From positions 1 through 64,000 of the forward strand of contig DATCTV010000061.1 in NCBI GenBank assembly GCA_036567785.1: a stretch of DNA of 64,000 bases, read 5' to 3'. The translations under genes were made by a program, and so were the position numbers. Below, in pieces: positions 32,778 to 34,133 of the stretch; the stretch's first letter is position 1; every line of letters begins with the position of its first letter. The DNA is from Desulfomonilia bacterium (GTDB taxonomy: Bacteria > Desulfobacterota > Desulfomonilia > UBA1062). The notes beneath the pieces were generated by a model, which saw nothing but the letters and a program-made list of their open reading frames with translations, was not told where the DNA came from and searched no databases.

Positions 32778-33533
32778 TCATCTCTTGCGGCCGGCGTCAA
32801 AAAGCGCGCCCTGGATGATCGGGGTTATGTACATGCCCTGATCCATATTGAAATAGGTCCCTTTTGAGCATTTGCCGGTTTTCCTGAATTTTCTTGCATG
32901 TTCTTCCGACCGGAAGAATACAGAGAGCCTTCAGAATGAATCTATTATGCTTGGCTCATCGAGCTTCTCAAAATCAACCAAGGGTGCAAATACAACGGGT
33001 GCTGAATTTTCCGTAAGAACTCTGTAATTCATTGAGCTGTCAACTTCCAGTACGAGAGGCTCTTTACAGCATGCGCATTCGGTTTCAATCGTTACCGTAA
33101 GTTCCTTGTTTTTCAAAAGCCCTTGCACGAAGGGCGCCGCGAGCGCGTCTACCGCTCAGGCGGCGTAGATGCGCTCTCCCGTGCTGAAGGTGAGCCTGTG
33201 CGGCGTCTTTTCCGCTGTGACCGGGTATGCCCATATCACATCACCATCCGGATTCCTGAACAGGAAGGTCATATGGCGTTCCAGTTCAAGGAGTATCTCG
33301 TTTACTCTTGCCGTTCCGATGCCTAATGACTGCGAGAAATATTCAGGCGTCAGCGGTCTGCCTTTTTCCGCAATGCCGGTTACTGCCAGATCACGCACCC
33401 TGTGATGATCATCCGTCATGAAGTCGAGCCTGAAGGCGTTTTCCTTGGCAGCACCGCCCACCTGCGCCTTCCACGCAAAGCCGGGTACGCGCAGGATATA
33501 TTTCCAGATACCGAGAAGAAGTGCGTCCTTCAT
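32778..33533 (-). CDS. MerB-like organomercurial lyase homologue with two predicted selenocysteines
   Basis: One frame of 252 codons contains in-frame TGA at 33156-33158 and 32931-32933. Read as selenocysteine these are Sec126 and Sec201 of a 251-residue protein. RIYAA-U-AVDAL aligns with MerB YAW-Cys96-ALDTL, including the Asp99 match (Asp129), and DSF-U-RLSVFFRS aligns with SF-Cys159-CHVHFFAS. The N-terminal helices (about 40-90) fit MerB's winged helix. The ATG follows GGAGG. Each TGA is followed by a SECIS-like hairpin. MerB cleaves carbon-mercury bonds using these residues. It is third after hisF and a secreted protein. The alternative, a double-nonsense pseudogene, is less likely because both stops hit catalytic sites and the frame is otherwise intact. 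Confidence 0.85.
32901..32918 (-). promoter_or_regulatory. SECIS-like hairpin after the second UGA
   Basis: In the mRNA, 12 bases after the UGA (32931-32933) comes a 7-bp perfect stem UUCUUCC/GGAAGAA with apical loop GGUC. The loop starts 19 bases after the UGA and begins with G, as required for SelB recognition in bacterial SECIS models (16-37 bases, G in the first two loop positions). Confidence 0.7.
33119..33135 (-). promoter_or_regulatory. SECIS-like hairpin after the first UGA
   Basis: In the mRNA, 20 bases after the UGA (33156-33158) comes a 6-bp stem GCCCUU/AAGGGC with loop CGUGC. The loop starts 26 bases after the UGA and has G at its second position. An overlapping larger inverted repeat (GAGCGC.../...GCGCTC) brackets the UGA itself. 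Confidence 0.6.
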
Positions 33534-33563: not shown

Positions 33564-34133
33564 CTAATCGGCAGGGATCTCATACCAGATATCTGAAATG
33601 AAACCCCTGGCATCCGGTTTGAACAGCTGTTTCGATATTGCAGGAACTTTTCCTGAACAGCGCCACTCATAAACGGTTGTACGTCCTGTCACATAAGCCG
33701 GTATGAAATCCTGATCCGGATTGTTCTGGCAATAATCCCTCATGGCCGCATCCGGCGTTTTTCTCATATCAGCTTTTTCCATGCATGGAAGATTTGCGCC
33801 TACCATGCAGGCAAAGACTTTTCTGTCCATGCAGCGCCAGAATGTGGTCTGTTTTATGTAATCGGAAGGCGTGTCGCCGCCAAGTTTCATGACCTTGCGC
33901 ATTCCCGTTACCATTGATTCGGGCACCTTTTCCCCCTGATATCTCTTATCTGGAGCATCTATGGTGCCGGCACAGTTGCAATAGCTGAACGGGTCAGTGT
34001 AGATGTTGTTTTCAGGCATTTTCGGGGAAGAATGTTTCGGGGCAGCCGGACCGTATGCATATGCAGCGCCTGACCCTGAAATGATTACCATGGCCAAAAC
34101 AGCTAAGGGCATTATTATCTTTTTCATCATCAT
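33564..34133 (-). CDS. Secreted cysteine-containing protein of unknown function
   Basis: A 189-residue protein with a clear signal peptide ([16 protein letters not shown] then [10 protein letters not shown]), predicted to be periplasmic. Several Cys pairs follow, including [29 protein letters not shown] and YEWRC. Related uncharacterised proteins occur in other Proteobacteria, but I know no function. The ATG overlaps the hisF stop (ATGA), so it is translationally coupled to hisF, and the MerB-like gene begins 30 bases after it. ATG at 34130 or 34127 are equivalent starts. Confidence 0.8.

Follow-up and report, generated by a model that had tools for sequence, protein, structure and literature searches.

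The mechanism of the organomercurial lyase MerB uses Cys96, Asp99, and Cys159 (PMC4525700). MerB was screened by the residues Cys96, Asp99, Cys117, and Cys159 in a survey covering 84,032 bacterial genomes, which makes no mention of selenocysteine (PMC8261052). Among the 119 prokaryotic selenoprotein families in a review of May 2026, the sole entry with the MerB fold is SaoL, which contains a single selenocysteine (Sec) (PMC13188914). Following Haft and Gwadz (2023), that review places SaoL in the Sec-assisted organometallic (SAO) system, in which it is the MerB-like organometallic lyase; an alkylmercury lyase-like selenoprotein is listed elsewhere under SaoL's accession (PMC9312934). The literature searched describes no lyase that uses two Sec residues on its metal.

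The window, a 64,000-nucleotide stretch from the genome of a Desulfomonilia bacterium, includes a gene that almost certainly encodes a relative of MerB in which both of the metal-gripping cysteines are replaced by Sec. The gene and its associated features are listed in Table 1.

Table 1. Coordinates of the MerB-like gene, its predicted Sec codons and putative SECIS elements, and the upstream gene, numbered by position in the window
Feature	Position	Strand	Description
Double-Sec MerB-like protein	32778..33533	−	251 codons; TGA at codons 126 and 201 only; TGA stop
UGA codon 126, Sec1 (predicted)	33156..33158	−	Equivalent to MerB Cys96
UGA codon 201, Sec2 (predicted)	32931..32933	−	Equivalent to MerB Cys159
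Putative SECIS element 1, hairpin after Sec1	33117..33136	−	GGCGCCCUUCGUGCAAGGGC; stem GCCCUU/AAGGGC, loop CGUGC
Putative SECIS element 2, hairpin after Sec2	32901..32918	−	UUCUUCC-GGUC-GGAAGAA
Upstream gene	33564..34133	−	189-aa protein; likely signal peptide, several Cys; 30 bases separate its end from the MerB-like gene

Gene structure, fold, and active site

Translation of the locus yields one minus-strand frame, running from an ATG at 33533 to a terminal TGA at 32780–32778, with no in-frame stop other than the two internal TGA codons, in agreement with an earlier sequence-only reading of this DNA. A Shine–Dalgarno sequence (GGAGG) lies a few bases 5′ of the ATG. The expectation in that reading that ordinary annotation would miss the gene is borne out, as standard ORF calling recovers only a 125-aa fragment (33156–33533) and drops the remainder.

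The protein matches the Pfam MerB model (PF03243) at 54.9 bits, above the cut-off of 27, and a profile of the family searched against the PDB finds both MerB2 and MerB (E 1e-7 to 1e-4). Profile alignment places Sec1, Asp129, Cys153, and Sec2 on Cys96, Asp99, Cys117, and Cys159 of MerB, respectively; the proposal that the two TGA codons fall on the catalytic cysteines, with the Asp99 equivalent kept, thus stands. The MerB motif used in that proposal is refined to SF-C159-C160-HVHFF, in which the TGA lies on Cys159 and the residue corresponding to MerB Cys160 is Arg in the window protein.

An AlphaFold model of the window protein (pLDDT 95.1, pTM 0.92) superposes on mercury-bound MerB2 (5c17) with a Z score of 22.6 over 206 residues at 2.6 Å, and on MerB (3f0o) with a Z score of 20.6. 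The next, unrelated chains score about 10, over 60–70 residues. Matches to winged-helix regulators (Foldseek/VIA) are limited to the N-terminal helical part of the protein, about residues 37–105. The window protein is extended at its N terminus by about 20 residues.

Common to MerB and the window protein are the whole fold, the equivalents of Asp99 and Cys117, and the positions of both catalytic chalcogen residues. However, MerB has cysteine at positions 96 and 159, where the window protein has UGA (predicted Sec), so that the two active sites are functionally analogous but not identical; the window protein is also only about 20% identical to MerB, about 40 residues longer, and without a mer operon. 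Scores against the NCBIfam MerB models (51.6 of 193 bits and 45.1 of 200 bits) are both below the curated cut-off. Membership in the MerB superfamily is supported by the predicted fold and the predicted Sec/Asp/Sec active site.

Distribution and conservation of the paired UGA codons

A first search of 99 relatives returned seven good matches, with 43–49% identity and exactly two in-frame TGA codons each. The alignment of these initial matches (A1) was then used on 395 genomes of the window's phylum and on 84,980 species genomes, the latter scanned with peptide patterns that omitted the Sec positions. Patterns derived from a single protein were too specific in the genome-collection scan and gave no matches; alignment-based patterns succeeded. 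Following deduplication, TGA is present at both columns in 89 distinct genes: the window gene, 87 others of its clade (clade A), and one member, L049, of a second clade (clade B). No Cys was observed at either Sec column within clade A, although more distant relatives do have Cys there. Two of the three outcomes that would have counted against the sequence-only reading, namely homologues lacking both Sec and Cys at these positions and TGA codons arising from sequencing error, are therefore not realized: the occurrence of TGA in the same two alignment columns of 88 other distinct genes indicates that these codons reflect neither error nor chance.

Identity to the window protein ranges from 37 to 55% among 52 aligned members, in all of which Asp129 and Cys153 are invariant; Asp129, the Asp99 equivalent, is kept in 88/89 genes of the full set. 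Homologues were assigned to the Desulfobacterota, Chloroflexota, Acidobacteriota, Nitrospirota, Spirochaetota, Binatota, Rokubacteria, Abyssobacteria, Bacteroidota, and Acidimicrobiia. These homologues come mostly from metagenome bins, and individual assignments may be wrong. The predicted double-Sec design recurs in anaerobe-rich bacterial groups of many phyla.

Relationship to other MerB-like proteins

Scanning the 395 genomes of the window's phylum with PF03243 produced 59 matches, of which 35 contain a pair of in-frame TGA codons and 7 contain one; by this measure the two-TGA form is common. Five groups can be distinguished among the matches examined closely: clade A, the window's group, with Sec at both catalytic positions (Sec-Sec); clade B, also Sec-Sec, with Glu for Asp99; an all-Cys sister group of clade B; SaoL-type proteins, with Cys and then Sec; and a fifth group close to canonical MerB, including both all-Cys and Cys-Sec pairs. 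Clades A and B each form one branch with full support in the gene tree, and clade B joins the all-Cys proteins (99/96). The simplest reading of this topology is that the double-Sec state arose twice, separately in A and in B, though the deeper nodes are weak.

Clade B (L147, L150, L152, L154, L155, L157–L162, L019, and L049/L146) shares two features with clade A: both catalytic positions are occupied by Sec, and Sec2 is followed by the same UUCC-GGUC-GGAA hairpin. It differs in its separate branch, its own all-Cys sisters, the substitution of Glu for Asp99, and its motif, QKWFGQU...PYAUSTMNLFRSEEH. One member, L162, has no NCBIfam family above cut-off.

Two further observations concern the remaining groups. 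A SaoL protein is present in the window's phylum (L137, 530–907 on the plus strand; 175.5 bits against a cut-off of 140), and its Sec aligns with MerB Cys159, with a Cys directly before it. Within the fifth group, L134 and L135 have Cys at the Cys159 position and L141 has TGA, an exchange of Cys and Sec inside one small clade.

No NCBIfam model (June 2026) claims the clade A proteins. The double-Sec proteins of clade A constitute a new, widespread subfamily of MerB-like proteins; they are new to the searched literature, and an earlier mention in the SaoL literature is not fully excluded. The suggestion in the sequence-only reading of a new selenoprotein family consequently holds for the double-Sec form, but not for Sec-containing MerB-like proteins as such, of which SaoL, with one Sec, was already known.

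Selenocysteine machinery and putative SECIS elements

The window's genome (4.0 Mb, 64 contigs, 97% complete) contains the full complement of selA, selB, selC, and selD, for which the sequence-only reading had proposed looking: tRNA-Sec (selC) scores 66.5 bits (Rfam cut-off 47), SelB 359 bits, SelA 500 bits, and SelD 378 bits. The selD gene (L164, G000:C27:68217-69131) itself has one in-frame TGA, like the genes of Sec-containing SelD proteins, suggesting that SelD is probably also a selenoprotein. SelB was found above cut-off in 27/29 other carrier genomes tested, the remaining two being incomplete or unassessed bins.

Codon usage in the hairpin downstream of each UGA is frozen across the family. 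After Sec1, the codons of a Pro-Phe-Val-Gln-Gly segment are CCC (86/86), TTC (88/88), GTG (87/88), CAA (76/86), and GGG (85/88), and these form the hairpin GCCCUU-CGUGC-AAGGGC. After Sec2, two Phe codons (TTC in 88/88 and in 85/86) are followed by Trp or Arg as TGG or CGG, by Ser as TCA (75/89) or TCG (14/89), and by two Glu codons (GAA in 84/88 and in 79/87); the family hairpin here is UUCUUCU-GGUC-AGAAGAA. For control columns of the same genes, the top codon accounts for 30–65% at well conserved fourfold-degenerate positions and 55–70% at other Phe positions. The pair closing the GGUC loop covaries (U-A in 75 genes, C-G in 10, U-G in 4), as does the adjacent pair, 206/209 (U-A in 85, C-G in 3, U-G in 1).

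After Sec1, folding energy is lower than in shuffled synonymous sequences, with a mean Z of −1.23 at the best offset; after Sec2 it is not. The case for the second hairpin rests on codon freezing and covariation, since total folding energy at this site is uninformative relative to shuffles. The all-Cys relatives read that keep FF.SEE have AGC, AGT, or CAT where clade A has an NGG codon, which means that these relatives lack the GGUC loop. In the E. coli fdhF SECIS, whose sequence was verified, the GGUC apical loop lies 21–24 nt past the UGA, similar to the 22–25 nt of the clade A Sec2 loop; the Sec1 loop, in contrast, differs in sequence (CGUGC) and is farther downstream, at 29–33 nt. In clade A, columns 205–210 encode the motif FF(W/R)SEE and at the same time make up the second hairpin. 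Column 207 is Trp or Arg but always NGG, from which we infer that the choice between these residues seems to be set by the RNA.

Together, these data make it near certain that the UGA pair is read as Sec, with the caveat that incorporation itself is inferred, in the absence of an experiment.

Genomic context

In the window, the double-Sec gene neighbors hisF, the gene for the 189-aa protein, and an Exo_endo_phos-like ORF; hisF and the 189-aa gene precede it on the same strand. The 189-aa protein is probably secreted and has no significant Pfam or NCBIfam match. The neighbors of homologues vary between genomes. No mer or SAO operon was seen in the flanks of the window gene or its homologues, no recurring transporter gene lies directly beside the homologues, and no conserved neighborhood was found beyond an occasional regulator directly upstream, of the MerR type (L064, L068, L078, L088, L093, L105) or the MarR type (L066, L085, L087, L104, L106, L121, L127). 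The presence of these regulators in some genomes suggests an inducible, stand-alone function. The MerR-type regulator of L064 has no Cys in its first 150 residues; a mercury-sensing MerR is therefore not indicated, and the inducer is probably not Cys-bound Hg(II).

In the window's genome as a whole, no MerA was found above cut-off (best 309 of 454 bits), and no HgcA was found. With respect to plasmid carriage, only weak matches were recovered, to ordinary MerB and its relatives.

Proposed function and alternatives

We consider it probable that the gene encodes an enzyme of the MerB fold, with Sec inserted at both catalytic positions, that acts as an organometal lyase; Sec incorporation, lyase activity, and substrate are all inferred. 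Mercury is bound far more tightly by selenium than by sulfur, and Sec would lower the pKa of the nucleophile and strengthen metal binding. In the proposed mechanism, SelB, tRNA-Sec, and the hairpin after each UGA would insert Sec at positions 126 and 201. The two selenolates would then grip the metal of an organomercurial (e.g., methylmercury) or of a similar soft organometal, and Asp129, like Asp99 in MerB, would help to deliver a proton to the departing carbon group, releasing an alkane. The metal would finally be handed to cellular thiols or to another protein. Cleavage of a metal–carbon bond is an inference from fold and active site, and binding of mercury or another organometal is likewise inferred; with no mer operon, canonical MerA, or HgcA found, either organomercury or a different soft organometal could be the substrate.

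Several data weigh against a lyase: the identity to MerB of about 20%, the lack of a mer or sao operon, and the lack of a MerA or HgcA hit over cut-off. The protein could instead bind or hold a soft metal or metalloid (Hg(II), Cu, arsenic, or selenium species), or serve in redox chemistry, without cleaving metal–carbon bonds, acting as a scavenger, chaperone, or reductase. The absence of a mer operon or MerA nearby is consistent with such a role, and a diselenide between residues 126 and 201 is chemically possible. Moreover, MerB-like variants with altered active sites (99Ser) have been reported to bind other metals (PMC8261052), so that the substrate cannot be deduced from the fold alone. However, the remainder of the MerB core is retained, Cys117 among it, and a pure metal binder would not need the Asp99 equivalent, which is required for protonolysis and is conserved in all but one of the 89 genes. 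We therefore view binding or redox chemistry without cleavage as unlikely, though not negligible.

Identity with SaoL, the one-Sec MerB-like protein of the SAO system, is very improbable. Both are selenoproteins of the MerB superfamily with Sec at the Cys159 position, and the window protein does score 47.6 bits against the SaoL model (NF040728); this is far under the curated cut-off of 140, which the true SaoL of the window's phylum passes at 175, and on this basis the assignment was rejected. In addition, SaoL has Cys at the Cys96 position and a single Sec in a CU motif, whereas the window protein has Sec at both positions and Phe before Sec2, and no SAO genes flank the window gene.

Reassignment or readthrough of UGA (as Trp, Gly, or Cys by a near-cognate tRNA), or a pseudogene with two stop mutations, has in its favor only the general fact that in-frame TGA codons can arise in these ways and is for practical purposes refuted by the complete selABCD set, the restriction of TGA to exactly the two catalytic columns across 89 distinct genes, the frozen hairpin codons and covariation after each TGA, and the use of TGA as the stop of the same gene.

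Implications for organometal degradation

The double-Sec genes would escape surveys that, like PMC8261052, screen MerB by Cys96, Asp99, Cys117, and Cys159. As a result, sediments, groundwater, and anoxic basins may hold more genetic capacity to break down organomercury or organometals than has been counted. A broader proposal, which we put forward only tentatively and with some doubt, is that many bacteria, often anaerobes, degrade methylmercury or other soft organometals by a dedicated bis-selenolate lyase whose evolution was separate from that of the mer operon and took place twice, in clades A and B. Because annotation truncates the gene at its first UGA, such a lyase would be invisible to merB surveys; if the proposal is true, the lyase would be an unrecognized enzyme responsible for demethylation not attributed to merB.
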